A DNA stretch of 64,000 nucleotides from Acidobacteriota bacterium (GTDB lineage: Bacteria > Acidobacteriota > Thermoanaerobaculia > Gp7-AA8 > JAHWKK01), in the NCBI GenBank assembly GCA_019347945.1, contig JAHWKK010000021.1, forward strand, positions 1 through 64,000, written 5' to 3'. Under the pieces are notes generated by a model, which was not told where the DNA came from, did no database searches, and was given only the letters and a program-made list of their open reading frames with translations. The position numbers were made by a program, and so were the translations under genes. Shown in pieces: positions 6,319-32,726 of this stretch. Each line of letters starts with the position of its first letter. Within the stretch, counting starts at the first letter, position 1.

Positions 6319-7665
6319 ATGACAATTACCACCACGATGTCCCAGAGGCTGACGATCGCGCCTCAACAGGTCCACGAGACGCTCGCCACGCACATGCTCG
6401 CCGACGGTTACGACATCGTCATGGATCTCGATCAATCCCAGGGATCCTGGCTGTTCGACGCGAAACGGAATGAGCGCGTGCTCGACTTCTTCTCCAATTT
6501 CGCGTCGATGCCGATCGGCTACAACCATCCGAGTCTCGACAATCCTCAATTTCGGGACCGGATCGCGACTGCCGCCCTGAACAAGCCGGCCAACTCCGAT
6601 CTCTACACGACCCAGATGGCGGAATTCGTCGAAACGTTCGCCCGCGTCGCCGTTCCGTCTCCGTTCAACAAGCACATGTTCTTCATCGAGGGTGGAGCGC
6701 TGGCCGTCGAAAACGCTCTCAAGGCTGCCTTCGACTGGAAGGTTCGAAAGAACCTCAGCCGCGGGCTCCCCGAAACGACCGGATCCAGAGTTCTTCATCT
6801 GAAAGAGGCCTTCCACGGACGGACCGGCTACACCCTTTCGCTGACCAACACGGCCGACCCGAGAAAGACTCAGTATTTTCCAAAGTTCGACTGGCCCAGG
6901 ATCGACAATCCGAAGATGCGCTTTCCGATGACCGAGCGCGTCACGGCGGAAGTCGCCGCGGCCGAACAAAAGGCGATCGCGCAGGCGAAAGCCGCGATCA
7001 CCGAGCATCCCAACGACATCGCCGCGCTCATCCTCGAGCCGATTCAGGGCGAGGGTGGAGACAATCATTTCCGGCCCGAGTTCATGAAGGCTCTCCGTCA
7101 GCTTTGCGACGAGAACGAGATCATTCTGATTTTCGACGAGATTCAGACCGGGCTCGGGCTGACCGGGACAATGTGGGCTTTCCAGCAGCTCGAGGTCGAG
7201 CCCGACATGTTCTGTTTCGGCAAGAAGACACAGGTATGCGGGTTCGCTTCGAACGAGCGGATCTTCGACATCGACAAAAACGTGTTCACCGTCTCCTCCC
7301 GGATCAACTCCACCTGGGGAGGCAACCTCACCGACATGGTCCGCTCACAGCGTTATCTCGAGGTCATTGACGAGGAGAACCTGGTCGAGAACGCCGCTTC
7401 CGTCGGGAAGTTCATACTGGACCGCCTGGCCGGCATGGCCGGTGACGAAGCCGCCGGAATTTCCAACGTTCGCGGCCGCGGTCTGATGATCGCGTTCGAT
7501 CTCGCGTCGGGCGAGCAGCGGGATCAGCTGCTTGAGAAGCTCGAAAAGAAAGGTCTGCTGGTCCTCGGCTCGGGGGAGCGCTCCATCCGGTTTCGCCCTC
7601 ACCTGATCGTGACGGAAGAAGAGGCCTCGGAGGCGCTGGTCCGTCTCGAACAGGCCATCGGCTGA
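6319..7665 (+). CDS. lat: L-lysine 6-transaminase
   Basis: This 448-residue class III PLP aminotransferase removes the epsilon-amino group of lysine, giving 2-aminoadipate 6-semialdehyde. The length and the sequence around the PLP lysine (FGKKTQVCGF, Lys302/Lys303) match the actinobacterial Lat group, as do FNKHMFFIEGGALAVENALK, HGRTGYTLSLTNT and LEPIQGEGGDNHF. The start follows a GAGGGTG ribosome site. Neighbouring thiolase and CoA-transferase genes are compatible with lysine breakdown, but the downstream semialdehyde dehydrogenase is not in the window. Confidence 0.93.
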   Translation: MTITTTMSQRLTIAPQQVHETLATHMLADGYDIVMDLDQSQGSWLFDAKRNERVLDFFSNFASMPIGYNHPSLDNPQFRDRIATAALNKPANSDLYTTQMAEFVETFARVAVPSPFNKHMFFIEGGALAVENALKAAFDWKVRKNLSRGLPETTGSRVLHLKEAFHGRTGYTLSLTNTADPRKTQYFPKFDWPRIDNPKMRFPMTERVTAEVAAAEQKAIAQAKAAITEHPNDIAALILEPIQGEGGDNHFRPEFMKALRQLCDENEIILIFDEIQTGLGLTGTMWAFQQLEVEPDMFCFGKKTQVCGFASNERIFDIDKNVFTVSSRINSTWGGNLTDMVRSQRYLEVIDEENLVENAASVGKFILDRLAGMAGDEAAGISNVRGRGLMIAFDLASGEQRDQLLEKLEKKGLLVLGSGERSIRFRPHLIVTEEEASEALVRLEQAIG

Positions 7666-27153: not shown

Positions 27154-27846
27154 TCAGCCGGAGAGGCGCCCTCCGGCTGTCGATTCGAGCTCTGCTGCAG
27201 CAATCCCCAGTGTTCGGGCCTGTTCGATGAAATCGGACGGGAGCGGAGCCGCGATCACCAGGTCCTCGCCCGATCTGGGATGCTTCATCGTCAGCCGCAA
27301 TGCGTGAAGCATCGGCCGGATCTCGTCGTCCCGAGTACCGTAGAGCCAGTCTCCGATCAGCGGATGACCGACGGCCGCGAGATGGACGCGGATCTGATGA
27401 GTCCTGCCGGTATGGAGGGTGAGCTCGAGAACCGACGCCCGTCGAGAGCTTTTCAGCGGCCGCAGGCTCGTGGTCGCGCGCCTTCCGTGGGGCCGCACCC
27501 CGAAGGTAATCGGGCCGATCCTGGCAATCGGAGCGTCGATCGTCTGTGAGACCGTGACCTCCCCCTCGACGAGCGCGAGATACGTCTTGCGAATTTCCTT
27601 CCGCTCGAATGCTCGATTGAGCTTCGCGTTGAGCTCCTTCTGCTTGGGAAAGAAGATGACGCCGGTCGTTCCCCGATCGAGCCGCTGGAGGAGGTACGCG
27701 GTCTCTCCGGCCGTTTCGAGATGATGTCGGACGGCGGCATGGAGATCCGGCTCGGATGGATCGTGAGCCTGCTGGCTCAGCAGTCCCGCCGGCTTGTCGA
27801 CGAAGATCAGATCGTCATCCTCCCAGAGAATCCGGAGATCGCTCAT
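27154..27846 (-). CDS. RluA-family RNA pseudouridine synthase
   Basis: The 230-residue enzyme isomerises uridine in rRNA or tRNA. It carries the catalytic aspartate in LLQRLDRGTTGVIFF (family RLDxxTSG), the KTYLALVEG strand and TGRTHQIRVHLAAVGHPLIGD. No S4 domain precedes the catalytic domain. It is a short RluA/RluC/TruC-type enzyme whose RNA target cannot be assigned. The start overlaps the stop of the upstream NamZ-like gene by four bases. The stop codon is embedded in the junction hairpin. Confidence 0.9.
   Translation of the reverse strand: MSDLRILWEDDDLIFVDKPAGLLSQQAHDPSEPDLHAAVRHHLETAGETAYLLQRLDRGTTGVIFFPKQKELNAKLNRAFERKEIRKTYLALVEGEVTVSQTIDAPIARIGPITFGVRPHGRRATTSLRPLKSSRRASVLELTLHTGRTHQIRVHLAAVGHPLIGDWLYGTRDDEIRPMLHALRLTMKHPRSGEDLVIAAPLPSDFIEQARTLGIAAAELESTAGGRLSG
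27155..27179. terminator. Hairpin at the convergent junction after the micro-ORF
   Basis: A nine-base-pair stem (CAGCCGGAG with CTCCGGCTG) closes a seven-base loop. It lies 22 bases after the micropeptide stop and contains the last codons of the convergent pseudouridine synthase gene. No U-run follows on either strand, so it may act as a weak bidirectional terminator or 3' stabiliser. Confidence 0.45.
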
Positions 27847-29027
27847 TCGTCATACAGGAGGAACTCGCGACGATCTGCGGCGAACGTGGTGAGATCGTCG
27901 TTCCAGCTCTCGATCCAGTCCGCAAGGTCGCCACCCTCTTCGACGATGCTGCGATAGCGGTCCGTGCCGGCGAGAAGGTCGATTGCGAGCCGGTCGGCTT
28001 CGAACTCGTATGGCTCCTTCCTCCAGTCGAAGTTCTCGGGGTCCATGTCCCGCGCCGTCTTCACGCACCACAGACCGGTGCGATAAGGCTCGAACACCCT
28101 CCGATCGGTCACGTGAAGCTCCACACCGCCGCAGACCTTACCGGCATGCTTCTGAAACGTCGGCAGAAAATAGTGGGGACGAAATCGAATCCCAGGGAGG
28201 TCGAGGCGGTTCAGACGTCTGGCGAGCTCGAAGGCATCCAGCCATGGTGCACCGAAAAATTCGAACGGATGCGTGGTTCCTCGTCCCTCCGAAAGGTTCG
28301 TCCCCTCGACCAGGCACATGCCCGGGTACACTGCAGCGGTATAGACGGTCGGCATGTTCGGGGACGGAATCACCCAGGGAAGGTCGGTATCGCCGTACCA
28401 CATCGCCCGCTTCCATCCTTCCATCGGGACGACTTCGAGATCGCACCCGAGATCGAACTTCGCGTTGAAGTAGCGAGCCAGCTCTCCCGCCGTCATTCCG
28501 TGACGCACGGGAAGCGGGAACAGGCCGACGAAACTCTGATAGCCCTCGCCCCGAATGTTTCCTTCGATGTGAATCCCATCGATCGGATTGGGGCGGTCGA
28601 GCACGACGATCCGGACTCCCAGCGGCGCGGCGGCGCGCATGCAGAGCGCCATCGTGTAGATGAATGTGTAATAACGGGAGCCGATGTCCTGGAGATCGAT
28701 CACGAGGACGTCGAGGCGCCGGAGGATCTCCGGGTCCGGCTCGAGCTTCTCCCGCGTGGAGCCGTAGAGCGAATGGACAGTGAGGCCGGTCAGCGGATCC
28801 TTCGTGTCGGCGACGTGGTCCATGTCCTGAGCTTCGCCCCAGATTCCATGCTCGGGTCCGAAAAGCTCGGTCAGCTTCCAGCCTCGGCCGTTGTAGAGCA
28901 GGTCGAGCGAGTGCCTCAGATCGCTCGTCACCGCACTCTGATGGGTCACCAGGCCGATCTTGGACCCCATGATCGTATGCGGATCGTCGAACAGCACCTC
29001 GAGCCCGGTTCGTACTCTCTGCCTCAT
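27843..29027 (-). CDS. DUF1343 / NamZ-type exo-beta-N-acetylmuramidase
   Basis: The 394-residue protein matches the DUF1343 (NamZ) family, which removes terminal MurNAc from peptidoglycan fragments. Recognisable segments are GLVTHQSAVTSD, FGPEHGIWGEAQDMDHV, DVLVIDLQDIGSRYYTF, LDRPNPI and LVEGTNLSEGRGTTHPFEFF. There is no signal peptide, unlike secreted relatives, so it may act on recycled muropeptides in the cytosol. It lies 50 bases downstream of the thiamine-type kinase gene and may be read from the same transcript, but a functional link is not evident. Confidence 0.88.
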   Translation of the reverse strand: MRQRVRTGLEVLFDDPHTIMGSKIGLVTHQSAVTSDLRHSLDLLYNGRGWKLTELFGPEHGIWGEAQDMDHVADTKDPLTGLTVHSLYGSTREKLEPDPEILRRLDVLVIDLQDIGSRYYTFIYTMALCMRAAAPLGVRIVVLDRPNPIDGIHIEGNIRGEGYQSFVGLFPLPVRHGMTAGELARYFNAKFDLGCDLEVVPMEGWKRAMWYGDTDLPWVIPSPNMPTVYTAAVYPGMCLVEGTNLSEGRGTTHPFEFFGAPWLDAFELARRLNRLDLPGIRFRPHYFLPTFQKHAGKVCGGVELHVTDRRVFEPYRTGLWCVKTARDMDPENFDWRKEPYEFEADRLAIDLLAGTDRYRSIVEEGGDLADWIESWNDDLTTFAADRREFLLYDE

Positions 29028-29077: not shown

Positions 29078-29596
29078 TCAGACGGAAAGACGCGCCAGTG
29101 AATCGATTGCGGTCTTCTCGTCGGCTCCCGGAATCTCGGCGAACTGGACCTCCAGCCCGGTCAGCAATTCCCGAAAGCGCCTGGTGATGAGATCCCGGTC
29201 GGCCTCCGGATCCCGAACGCCGTCGGGGATCATCTCCATCGAAGGGAGCAGCATGTAGAGATCCGCACGCCGCTTGCTCGCTTCACTCTCGATCCACTCC
29301 GGACACGATCCGTAGTAATGCCGCGCATACACAATGGTGGAAAAGAGATCCGTGTCGTGAAACACGATCCCTCCCCGAGCGGCTGCCACTGCTCGATCGA
29401 TCAGATGAATCTGTCCGATCGCGATCGGCGGGACGTCCCGTGCCTCGAGCGGTCTTCCCAGATCCCGGGCGTACTCGCGCGCAAACTCACCGCTCCAGAC
29501 GGTTCCAAAGATCTTCGCCAGCCGGGCCGCGAGCGTCGACTTGCCGCTGCACTCGGGACCGACGAGCGTCACCCGCCGCAGCTCCCGCGCCGCCAT
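29078..29596 (-). CDS. NadR-like P-loop kinase, candidate thiamine kinase
   Basis: The 172-residue protein resembles the kinase domain of NadR (AAA_28 type): Walker A GPECSGKSTLAARLA, then SGEFAREYARDLG, HDTDLFSTIVYARHYYG as the second acidic motif and YMLLPSMEMIPDGVRDPE with the lid region. NadR kinases phosphorylate nicotinamide riboside. This gene however overlaps a PnuC-type transporter gene by one base (TGATG) and lies in a TPP-riboswitch operon, so thiamine is the more likely substrate. The ATG at 29596 is used; the longer frame to 29818 lies inside the transporter gene. Confidence 0.8.
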   Translation of the reverse strand: MAARELRRVTLVGPECSGKSTLAARLAKIFGTVWSGEFAREYARDLGRPLEARDVPPIAIGQIHLIDRAVAAARGGIVFHDTDLFSTIVYARHYYGSCPEWIESEASKRRADLYMLLPSMEMIPDGVRDPEADRDLITRRFRELLTGLEVQFAEIPGADEKTAIDSLARLSV

Positions 29597-30210
29597 CACG
29601 CCGGCCGCTCTCCGATGAGGGTTTCGTACCCCGCCGCTGCTCTTGAATCCCGCAGAGACTGCTTCCATCTGAGGAATCCGATGACCGCGAGGACGAGCAA
29701 ACCGACGTGGAGAATCGCCGTCGGAATCAAATCGCGGTTGATGAAGAGAGCGACGTAGAAGACGTCGACGACGATCCATATGATCCAGCTCTCCAGATGT
29801 TTCTTCGCCGTCATCCATTGAGCGACGAGACTGAAGCTGACCAGCGTCGAGTCGGCCCAGGGAACCGCCGCGTCCGTGTACGTCGACAGAACAGACGCGA
29901 GCGAGACCGCACCGATCGCTCCGAGTCCGAGCGCGACCACCAGCGGGAACCGCGGAATTCTGGTCACGCGCAGAACGTCGGCCTCAGTCTCGCCTCGCGT
30001 CCACAACCACCATCCGTAGATCGCGAACAGCCCGTAGAGAAAGTAGAGCCCGGAATCCGCGTAGAGCCGGGCCCGGAAATAGACGACCACATACATCGCC
30101 GTACTCACCAGCGAGACCGGCCAGCACCAGACGCTCTGCCGGGAGGTCAGCCAGATCGCGACCGCGGTGATGATGGCCGCGGAAACCTCGAAGAGGGACA
30201 ACCCAGCCAC
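29596..30210 (-). CDS. pnuT: PnuT-like (PnuC-family) thiamine transporter
   Basis: The 204-residue membrane protein has six to seven hydrophobic segments and the family segments WCWPVSLVSTAMYVVVYF, YADSGLYFLYGLFAIYGWW and SLVAQWMTAKKHLESWIIW. PnuC-type proteins carry nicotinamide riboside; the PnuT subgroup carries thiamine and is known from TPP-regulated loci. The riboswitch and TonB receptor upstream favour PnuT. It starts one base after the receptor's stop codon and overlaps the kinase start. Transport with trapping by phosphorylation is the expected mode. Confidence 0.85.
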   Translation of the reverse strand: MAGLSLFEVSAAIITAVAIWLTSRQSVWCWPVSLVSTAMYVVVYFRARLYADSGLYFLYGLFAIYGWWLWTRGETEADVLRVTRIPRFPLVVALGLGAIGAVSLASVLSTYTDAAVPWADSTLVSFSLVAQWMTAKKHLESWIIWIVVDVFYVALFINRDLIPTAILHVGLLVLAVIGFLRWKQSLRDSRAAAGYETLIGERPA

Positions 30211-30211
30211 T

Positions 30212-32503
30212 TCACAGCCGCCAGTCGAGTGTCAGCGAAAAACTCCTGCCTGACAACGGGTAGTAGAAAGCGATGCCATCGATCGACCTCGAACCGCCCG
30301 AGTCTTCGATCAGAAAGGGATAGCTGTAGCCGCTCGGCTTGAAACGCTCTTCGTCGAGCAGATTGCGAACGCTCCACCGGAGGCGCATTCCGTCACCCAG
30401 CCACCGGTCGAGCGCGACATCTCCCTGGAGGTCAGCGATGAAGTACGCTGGTGTCACCAGATCCGGATTCCCCGTGTTGTCCAGCTGCGACTCGCTCACC
30501 CACCGCGCCAGGAGCTCGGTGCGCAGCCCGTCGTACGGCCGCCACTCGACTGCCCCGTTCAGGATCGTTTCCGGAGTCAGCAGTGGCTCGACATCACGAT
30601 GAACTATCGGGACCGTTTCGACGAAACCGAAGTTTTCGTCGTAGACGTCATAAAACTGCTCCCACTCGCGAATGCGATTCCGGCTGAAGCTGGATGCGCC
30701 ACTCACGCTCCAACGGTCGCTGAGCATCCAGTCCACCTCCAGCTCGAGACCTCGACGGGAGGAGCGGTCGACATTGCGCCGCGTCGGCAATCCGATCTCC
30801 GAGAGCTCTCCGGTCAGTGCGATCTCGTCGCGAAACTCCATCGCGTAGACATTTGCAGCGAGCCTCAGAGCTGCCGTCACGTGATCGACGCCCAGCTCGA
30901 CGTCCACGACACTCTCGGGACGGACGGCCCGCAGATCGTAACGGATCGAAGCATTGTCTTCGCCGAAGAGCATGTCGCTTCGAGCCGGTTCACGCTCGGA
31001 ACGTCCGATCGAGCCGTATGCCGAGACCGCGGGCGTCAGCTGGTAGCGGGCCCCGACTTTCGGATTGAAAAATGTCCAGTCGACACTACCGAGATCGAGA
31101 TCGCCGATGTACGTGAATGACGCCCATCTCACCTGGCCATCGCCAAAGAGGGTCCAGTCCCCCACCTTTCTCGAAAGCTTCACGAATGCATTCGCTTCAT
31201 TTTTTTCGGCGGTGTTCAGGTACTGGCGAGCGCCCTCGATATGAAGCTGATGATCCCGCGTGAAATCGGTCAGGTGGAACCCGACGTCGACGTTCGTCGC
31301 TCCTCTGATTTCGTTGTAGACCCCGATCAGACCAATCTGATGACCATCGATCGAAAACCGGAGCACCGAATCGGGCACCGCCACATCGAACCATCCATCG
31401 GCTCCGTTGTAGTAGGCGGTAGCCGAGACGGTTCGCGTCTCGCTCAGCGGGCGGATCAATTCGACCTTCAGCAGGTCCTGTCCGAAATCGTCGCGATCGT
31501 CGGCCCCGAGTGGATTGAAACGGCGATTCCCTTCGAGAATGTCGTCCTCGACCGCCAGATACGAAAGCTCGCTCTTCTCGTTTCCCGAGAATCCGAACAC
31601 ACGAACGAGGGTCTCGCCCACCGTCCCGTCGAGCCCACCCCAGAAGGCGACCTGCTCGACTCCCGAGTTGTCGCGGTAGCCGTCACTCTCGTTCAGGGAG
31701 ATGCTCGAATAGCCTCTCCAGTCATCGAGAAAACTTCCCGTATGCCAGGCGACCCTTGCGCGACGATGGTCGAACGAGCCGAGCCCGACATAGCCGTCGA
31801 TCCTCGAGTCATCGGCGGGAGTGAGCGATAGGAAGTTGACCGACCCGCCGAACGAAGGCGAACCGAGCGTGGAGGTCCCGACGCCCCGCTGCATCTGCAG
31901 CGAGCTCGTGTTCGACGCCAGATCGGCAAAGTTCGCGAAATAGATCGCGTTCTCGGCTGGATCGTTCAGCGGTACACCGTCCAGTGTGACGTTGATTCGC
32001 GTCGTGCCGATTCCTCGTATCGAAAAGTACGAGTAGCCGCTTCCACCCGAACCGGCGTCCGCCCAGCTCACAACCGAGGGAAGTCTCTCGAGAAGCAATG
32101 GAATGTCCTGTCCCCGATCGTTCTCGAGAATCTCCTCACGGGACATCTCGCTCGACGCTACCGGTGCCTGATCCGAGGCGCGGATTGCCGTGACGGTCAC
32201 AGACTCCCGATATCCGGCAGAACCCTCGAATCGAATCTCCAGGTACTCATCCGGATTGTCGACGCTAATCCTCTCCGTGATTCCGCGGTACGACACGGTC
32301 AGGACATCCACGCCAACGACGGGCAGCATGAACGATCCATCCTCCCCAGTGGTTCGTGTCACTCCCGCCGCACTGACTCGCGCACCTTCGACGCCGAGTC
32401 CTGCGCCGTCGATTACCCGACCGTTCAGTCCGCTCTGAGCAACGGACGAAAGAGAGAACGCGAGACTGATGCAAAGAAAAGAAAAAATCGAAAGCCGCTT
32501 CAT
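30212..32503 (-). CDS. TonB-dependent outer membrane receptor, probable thiamine receptor
   Basis: The 763-residue protein has a signal peptide, a carboxypeptidase-like regulatory domain (GLNGRVIDGAGLGVEGARVS, about residues 25-105), a plug domain (DIPLLLERLPSV, SIRGIGTTRINVTLDGVPLND, about 120-240) and a C-terminal 22-strand barrel ending FSLTLDWRL. The ATG at 32503 is chosen because GGAGG lies five bases upstream; the in-frame GTG at 32509 is inside that site. The TPP riboswitch in its leader indicates thiamine or a thiamine precursor as cargo. It is the first gene of the transport operon. Confidence 0.9.
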   Translation of the reverse strand: MKRLSIFSFLCISLAFSLSSVAQSGLNGRVIDGAGLGVEGARVSAAGVTRTTGEDGSFMLPVVGVDVLTVSYRGITERISVDNPDEYLEIRFEGSAGYRESVTVTAIRASDQAPVASSEMSREEILENDRGQDIPLLLERLPSVVSWADAGSGGSGYSYFSIRGIGTTRINVTLDGVPLNDPAENAIYFANFADLASNTSSLQMQRGVGTSTLGSPSFGGSVNFLSLTPADDSRIDGYVGLGSFDHRRARVAWHTGSFLDDWRGYSSISLNESDGYRDNSGVEQVAFWGGLDGTVGETLVRVFGFSGNEKSELSYLAVEDDILEGNRRFNPLGADDRDDFGQDLLKVELIRPLSETRTVSATAYYNGADGWFDVAVPDSVLRFSIDGHQIGLIGVYNEIRGATNVDVGFHLTDFTRDHQLHIEGARQYLNTAEKNEANAFVKLSRKVGDWTLFGDGQVRWASFTYIGDLDLGSVDWTFFNPKVGARYQLTPAVSAYGSIGRSEREPARSDMLFGEDNASIRYDLRAVRPESVVDVELGVDHVTAALRLAANVYAMEFRDEIALTGELSEIGLPTRRNVDRSSRRGLELEVDWMLSDRWSVSGASSFSRNRIREWEQFYDVYDENFGFVETVPIVHRDVEPLLTPETILNGAVEWRPYDGLRTELLARWVSESQLDNTGNPDLVTPAYFIADLQGDVALDRWLGDGMRLRWSVRNLLDEERFKPSGYSYPFLIEDSGGSRSIDGIAFYYPLSGRSFSLTLDWRL

Positions 32504-32511
32504 CTTCACCT

Positions 32512-32537
32512 CCGAGTCGTTTTGGCCGGAGACTCAG
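32512..32537 (-). promoter_or_regulatory. Possible Shine-Dalgarno-sequestering stem below the TPP aptamer
   Basis: On the minus strand CTGAGTC (32531-32537) can pair with GACTCGG (32512-32518), a seven-pair stem with one G-U that captures the first two bases of the GGAGG ribosome site at 32509-32513. This is the expected expression platform for translational control by ligand, though alternative pairing with the aptamer was not modelled. Confidence 0.4.
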
Positions 32538-32559
32538 AGATGATTCGCTCTCTTGCCTT

Positions 32560-32633
32560 TCCCTACGCCGGTTCAAACCGGATCAGGTTCTAAGGGTTTG
32601 ATCTCAGGCCCGCATGGGCCACCCCCAAGGCTC
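32560..32633 (-). promoter_or_regulatory. TPP (THI-box) riboswitch
   Basis: The minus strand shows the conserved aptamer elements in order: GGGGGTG stem, CTGAGAT (32601-32607), ACCCTTAGAACCTGATC (32581-32597) and the closing CGTAGGG (32561-32567). These are the pyrimidine- and pyrophosphate-sensing arms of the thiamine pyrophosphate riboswitch. It lies about 60 bases upstream of the TonB receptor start and should turn the receptor-transporter-kinase operon down when TPP is plentiful. Confidence 0.95.
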
Positions 32634-32726
32634 CCGCCATCCATAAGAACCCAACTCGATCAGAGTGCGGGTTGTTCCAGACTCCGTCTACACGACTGAG
32701 CCGAAGCGAATCGAAAGCTCACCGAC

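Follow-up and report, generated by a model that had tools for sequence, protein, structure and literature searches.

A TPP-riboswitch-led operon of an Acidobacteriota bacterium is predicted to import thiamine and to trap it with a stand-alone NadR-like kinase

Introduction

What does a PnuC-family permease import, and what does a NadR-like kinase phosphorylate, when the genes for both stand behind a thiamine pyrophosphate (TPP) riboswitch? This question is raised by an operon in a stretch of 64,000 nucleotides, referred to here as the window, which comprises positions 1 to 64,000 of contig JAHWKK010000021.1 in the assembly GCA_019347945.1 of an Acidobacteriota bacterium, probably a member of the class Thermoanaerobaculia. 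In this study, we suggest, with a probability that we put at roughly 0.8, that the operon serves thiamine scavenging in a predicted auxotroph: thiamine would be imported via a TonB-dependent receptor and a permease of the PnuT type and be trapped as thiamine monophosphate (TMP) by the NadR-like kinase, after which the ThiL enzyme of the cell would convert TMP to TPP. We infer the substrate, the product, the transport and the switching from sequence.

Results

A TPP riboswitch leads the window operon

An initial annotation of the window had described a TPP aptamer heading genes for a TonB receptor, a PnuC-family transporter and a NadR-type kinase with one-base junctions, and this description is borne out by our searches (Table 1). 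The aptamer matches the RF00059 covariance model over all of its positions (1-105/105) with 72.6 bits, the gathering threshold being 54.3 bits (E 2.3e-12); it aligns with relatives taken from other kinase loci (27 sequences) and is the sole TPP match in its own genome (3.72 Mb, 99.65% complete). There is 1 base between the receptor and permease genes, and the permease and kinase genes overlap by 1 base within the sequence TGATG. In the minimum-energy fold of positions 32485-32645, a 13-bp hairpin starts at the end of the aptamer and the GGAGG ribosome-binding site of the receptor gene (32509-32513) is paired within it. This location of GGAGG, inside a hairpin directly after the aptamer, suggests that the riboswitch acts by translational control, as judged from this predicted fold. 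The ATG at 32503, behind GGAGG, is the likelier start of the receptor.

Table 1. Features of the window operon and fused kinase copies in related lineages
Feature	Location	Strand	Basis or remark
TPP riboswitch aptamer (THI element)	32543-32636	minus	RF00059, full length
Predicted 13-bp hairpin, likely translational expression platform	32506-32543	minus	Minimum-energy fold of 32485-32645
TonB-dependent outer-membrane receptor, Omr1/OMthi-like role	30212-32509	minus	PF00593, PF07715
PnuC-family permease, predicted thiamine transporter (PnuT)	29596-30210	minus	PF04973, riboswitch context
Predicted thiamine kinase, a stand-alone P-loop kinase of the NadR-RNK type	29078-29596	minus	PF13521
Fused NMNAT-kinase	L034:5792-6775 (same record as L097)		GKFMPPHAGH; convergent with TPP-TonB-PnuT
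Fused NMNAT-kinase	L133:3632-4129		Convergent with PnuT

The receptor contains the domains PF00593 (E 1.3e-22) and PF07715 (E 1.3e-12). The PnuC/PnuT family domain PF04973 is present in the permease (E 2.3e-49), which also passes the cut-off of TIGR01528 (PnuC) and is a weak relative of the PnuC structure 4qtn. The riboswitch context favours a PnuT function, that is thiamine transport, over a PnuC function, that is transport of nicotinamide riboside (NR). A residue rule for telling PnuT from PnuC (WxxWxxxD versus N) was also tried and was rejected: it did not separate the groups, and WxxWxxxD also occurs in several NadR-linked PnuC proteins. All three parts of a thiamine uptake operon of the Omr1-PnuT type, namely a TPP riboswitch, a TonB receptor and a predicted PnuT, are present in the window and its relatives.

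The same operon recurs in two phyla

In a first survey, 297 Acidobacteriota genomes were searched and matches were obtained in 32. Flanks of 1.5 kb are too short for Rfam to reveal the riboswitch, as the receptor gene that lies in between spans 2.3 kb. With longer flanks most loci were of two kinds. The window plan, consisting of a TPP riboswitch, a TonB receptor, a Pnu permease and a stand-alone kinase, was found whole not only in the window but also in about 11 further Acidobacteriota genomes, and in most of these the riboswitch was confirmed by a whole-genome Rfam scan. The operon is split in genomes G221 and G054; in Bacteroides the thiamine uptake operon is likewise split in some genomes (PMC5613172). 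In loci of the second kind, the gene after PnuC encodes a complete NadR that shows the motif (e.g. GKFMPPHNGH) of the nicotinamide mononucleotide adenylyltransferase (NMNAT) domain. No riboswitch of any class exceeded the Rfam threshold in these PnuC-NadR loci when taken with 1.5 kb flanks, and no TPP-like pattern was found in their 13-kb stretches.

In a second survey, a kinase-only profile was run against one genome per species (84,980 species), and the best 80 loci, some of them from genomes of the first survey, were chosen without reference to riboswitches. They come mainly from Acidobacteriota and Gemmatimonadota; single bins labelled otherwise may be misbinned. The kinase adjoins a Pnu gene in 78 of the 80 loci, and where the two genes share a strand (76 pairs), PnuT and the kinase touch or overlap in 72. 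The initial annotation had named homologous operons without TPP riboswitches as the finding that would speak against it, and had proposed a search for this kinase type behind such elements. The outcome did not refute the annotation: a covariance model detected TPP elements at 47 of the 80 loci. Of these elements, 32 lie upstream in the same orientation at 2.2-3.3 kb, 11 are divergent and just upstream, and 4 are elsewhere nearby. Among the 33 loci without an element, 14 have less than 4 kb of upstream sequence. Since kinase genomes usually hold just one TPP riboswitch over several megabases, we estimate that chance alone would place one in fewer than 1 of the 80 loci. At one locus (L119:4779-7528) a TPP riboswitch, a TonB receptor and the kinase are present and the PnuT gene is missing; the receptor stop codon is at 6996 and the kinase ATG at 7001.

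A cluster of similar content is found in cultured Persicobacter of the Bacteroidota (L165:4420-8184 and L168:3346-7083), where genes for PnuT, a stand-alone NadR-like kinase and a TonB receptor surround a TPP riboswitch. This element scores 62.7 bits in strain JZB09; in P. psychrovividus (strain NBRC 101262, kinase at L165:5019-5540) it reaches 46.1 bits, which is below the gathering threshold (E 1.3e-6). The Persicobacter kinase is related to the Acidobacteriota clade and has a different motif. Relatives of the kinase on plasmids of Leptospira and Leptolyngbya have roughly double the length and adjoin PnuC; their sole annotation is AAA family ATPase.

Kinase genomes have a hole in the thiamine pathway

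The presence of thiamine enzymes was assessed by family searches in a first set of 17 Acidobacteriota genomes with a member of the kinase clade, including G222 with a fused form, and in a second set of 50 further genomes reached via the loci of the second survey, many of which are metagenome bins in which single absences may be gaps. Thiamine pyrophosphokinase (TPK) was found in 0/17 and 0/50 of these genomes, while ThiL scored over its cut-off in 17/17 and 43/50. ThiC and ThiE are absent from the same 13 genomes of the first set, and ThiE is absent from 41 of the second set, with a match in the remaining 9. ThiK (TIGR02721) was over its cut-off in none of the 36 genomes scanned. The window genome itself lacks ThiC, ThiE, TPK and ThiK and has kept ThiL (213 bits); the bacterium is predicted to be a thiamine auxotroph. 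As ThiL needs TMP and ThiE is absent, TMP must come either from a thiamine kinase or from import, and the riboswitch-controlled kinase encoded next to a transporter is the obvious candidate source. The pathway hole thus argues for thiamine over NR or hydroxymethylpyrimidine (HMP) as the predicted substrate, and for TMP over TPP as the predicted product. The proposal of the initial annotation that the context is one of thiamine rather than NR, which made the kinase a candidate for thiamine, gains support from these counts (TPK in 0/67, ThiL in 60/67, ThiE mostly absent).

The converse pattern is seen in three genomes of the same class (G067, G135 and G254), which lack the kinase, ThiC and ThiE, and in which TPK is present and the best ThiL-like scores are below the cut-off. 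Judged by gene content, two complete solutions therefore alternate, TPK alone or the operon kinase together with ThiL. In each of these three genomes (loci L067, L068 and L069) a distant TonB receptor is encoded behind a TPP riboswitch, no PnuT was detected adjacent to it, and TPK is encoded on another contig. For Gemmatimonadota, thiamine synthesis has been reported to be much rarer in the large orders other than Palauibacterales (PMC10469786), which fits the picture of a pathway hole.

The operon kinase forms a clade of its own on the NadR fold

The window kinase is a protein of 172 amino acids in which the kinase domain of the ribosylnicotinamide kinase (RNK) type is present (PF13521, E 3e-32). 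It opens with the Walker A strand, and no NMNAT domain was found in it. Against the NadR equivalog TIGR01526 it scores 90 bits, far under the cut-off of 341; the ThiK family TIGR02721 is not among its NCBIfam matches, and the TPK catalytic domain PF04263 was found neither in it nor elsewhere in its genome. Among solved structures, its only convincing sequence relatives are RNK domains of NadR (8x7f, E 2e-13; 1lw7; 9x6f; 6gye). An AlphaFold model built with 65 sequences has a mean pLDDT of 91.1, and a fold search with this model returned NadR first (8x7f, E 9.4e-12, about 24-30% identity) and thymidylate kinases next. The Walker A sequence GPECSGKS, the D81-T-D83 motif and R128 are kept.

Maximum-likelihood analysis of 100 kinase domains places all stand-alone operon kinases apart from all PnuC-linked NadR domains (100/93). 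The clade carries the motif DTDLxSTVVYARHYYGxCPxW, and the positions that are conserved in it and different in PnuC-linked NadR (L84, S86, V89, Y90, H93, C98, P99 and W101) all fall in the stretch directly after the DTD motif. In thymidylate kinases, residues of the helix corresponding to this stretch touch the acceptor base, and a shift to another acceptor should therefore show here. The window kinase hence shares PF13521 and the P-loop fold with the C-terminal RNK domain of NadR, but it has neither the NMNAT nor the helix-turn-helix domain of that protein, belongs to a separate clade with its own motif and is found in a TPP rather than a nicotinamide adenine dinucleotide (NAD) context.

Discussion

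According to the model that we favour, low TPP would free the translation of the TonB receptor, through which thiamine would cross the outer membrane; PnuT would then allow it to pass the inner membrane by facilitated diffusion. The stand-alone NadR-like kinase would trap it there by the reaction thiamine + ATP to TMP, and ThiL would turn TMP into TPP, which would shut the riboswitch again. It is also likely, in our view, that the operon kinases constitute a new family of thiamine kinases on the NadR RNK fold, unrelated to ThiK and TPK, which would serve salvage in thiamine auxotrophs of the Acidobacteriota and Gemmatimonadota, with a second stand-alone subgroup in Bacteroidota, in place of the thiamine pyrophosphorylating enzyme of Bacteroidetes.

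ThiK (YcfN) of Escherichia coli is a member of the aminoglycoside phosphotransferase/choline kinase group, whereas the window kinase is of the NadR-RNK type (PF13521); the reaction predicted for the latter is the same, thiamine to TMP, with ThiL forming TPP. In E. coli, thiamine is converted to TPP via ThiK and then ThiL (PMC12632268). The closest likeness in gene order is to the Bacteroidetes thiamine uptake operon OMthi (Omr1)-pnuT-tnr3, whose third gene encodes a thiamine pyrophosphorylating enzyme (PMC5613172). Both operons have a TPP riboswitch, a TonB receptor, PnuT and then a thiamine-phosphorylating enzyme, predicted in our case; however, the third gene of the window operon encodes a NadR-like kinase, and ThiL is encoded elsewhere in the genome. 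The uptake operon as such is thus of a known kind; what sets the present one apart is its kinase, which is non-orthologous, has a known fold and is newly predicted to act on thiamine. In the literature searched, we found no previous suggestion that a kinase of the NadR type phosphorylates thiamine, although subscription papers or regulon databases may contain such a prediction.

A first alternative is that the operon imports and phosphorylates NR by means of PnuC and an NR kinase and stands under a TPP riboswitch by chance. The match of the permease to TIGR01528, the proximity of the kinase to NadR RNK domains among solved structures and the NMNAT domain retained in the fused copies L097 and L133 are in agreement with this idea. 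Pairs of PnuC and NadR for NR share with the window operon the combination of a Pnu permease with an adjacent RNK-type kinase for uptake and metabolic trapping. However, a TPP riboswitch is found in more than half of the kinase loci (47/80), and the operon kinase has no NMNAT domain while PnuC operons of the same phylum have a full NMNAT-RNK NadR and no TPP riboswitch was found adjacent to them. NR import would also leave TMP without a source in genomes with ThiL and without ThiE, and we regard this explanation as improbable.

We consider it just as improbable that the kinase is a pyrophosphokinase converting thiamine to TPP in a single step. Enzymes of the RNK/nucleoside monophosphate kinase fold transfer a single phosphate. 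The gene at the matching place in Bacteroidetes operons, tnr3, does encode a thiamine pyrophosphorylating enzyme (PMC5613172), and kinase genomes are without TPK. Yet ThiL, which would stand idle next to a one-step enzyme, is present in 60 of the 67 kinase genomes although ThiE has mostly gone, and genomes with a real TPK have no true ThiL.

A third alternative, in which the compound imported and phosphorylated would be a thiamine precursor, either HMP or the thiazole alcohol, draws on the fact that TPP riboswitches also govern importers of such precursors, and ThiC and ThiE are both retained in four of the 17 kinase genomes surveyed first. It is nevertheless very unlikely, as precursors could not be joined where ThiE is absent, which is the case in the window genome, in 12 others of the 17 and in 41 of the 50. 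Least probable of all is that the kinase is a hitchhiker or degenerating copy with no thiamine role, ThiL using imported TMP: the window copy is divergent and has lost near-invariant residues, but its frame is open with a base composition of the coding type, the overlap of kinase and PnuT genes is preserved across two phyla, and at L119 the kinase is still under the riboswitch although PnuT has been lost.

Several observations weigh against the thiamine-kinase model. No member of the clade diverges more than the window kinase, which sits on the longest branch and is without three residues (D119, W122 and R162) that are nearly invariant among the members; nor did residues provide a distinction between PnuT and PnuC. 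In two related lineages, L097 (genome G222) and L133, the operon-type kinase domain is part of a NadR-like fusion protein with an intact NMNAT domain, and these copies are nested inside the operon-kinase clade in the tree. The domain could also serve NR in such proteins, as a dual-substrate enzyme, or the fusion could be secondary and have produced a secondary NadR. Furthermore, 19 loci with at least 4 kb of upstream sequence show no riboswitch nearby, and many Gemmatimonadota loci have PnuT and the kinase without an adjacent riboswitch, most of these genomes having one elsewhere. Genome G005 has the same hole (no ThiC, ThiE or TPK, and ThiL present) and has no operon-type kinase, only a true NadR. 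Finally, the genomes counted for co-occurrence are related and not independent. In G005 (L080), a distant TonB receptor and a protein resembling sodium-solute symporters are encoded behind a TPP riboswitch.

If the thiamine-kinase model is correct, a missing enzyme of vitamin B1 salvage would be named, wrong calls of NR salvage would be corrected in many genomes, where operon-type kinases are automatically annotated as ATPases of NAD metabolism or plainly as 'AAA family ATPase', and an example of a kinase family changing its vitamin would be provided. Two abundant phyla, for which metagenomes are the main source of knowledge, seem to rely on external thiamine via the operon kinase, and as Persicobacter, which has a similar cluster, is cultured, direct testing is possible.

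Two further features of the window may be mentioned. A gene for NamZ, an exo-beta-N-acetylmuramidase (27843-29027), begins about 50 bases downstream of the kinase gene on the same strand, and the two may be co-transcribed. At the edge of the window, positions 1-506 of the minus strand hold the 5' part of a 16S rRNA gene.

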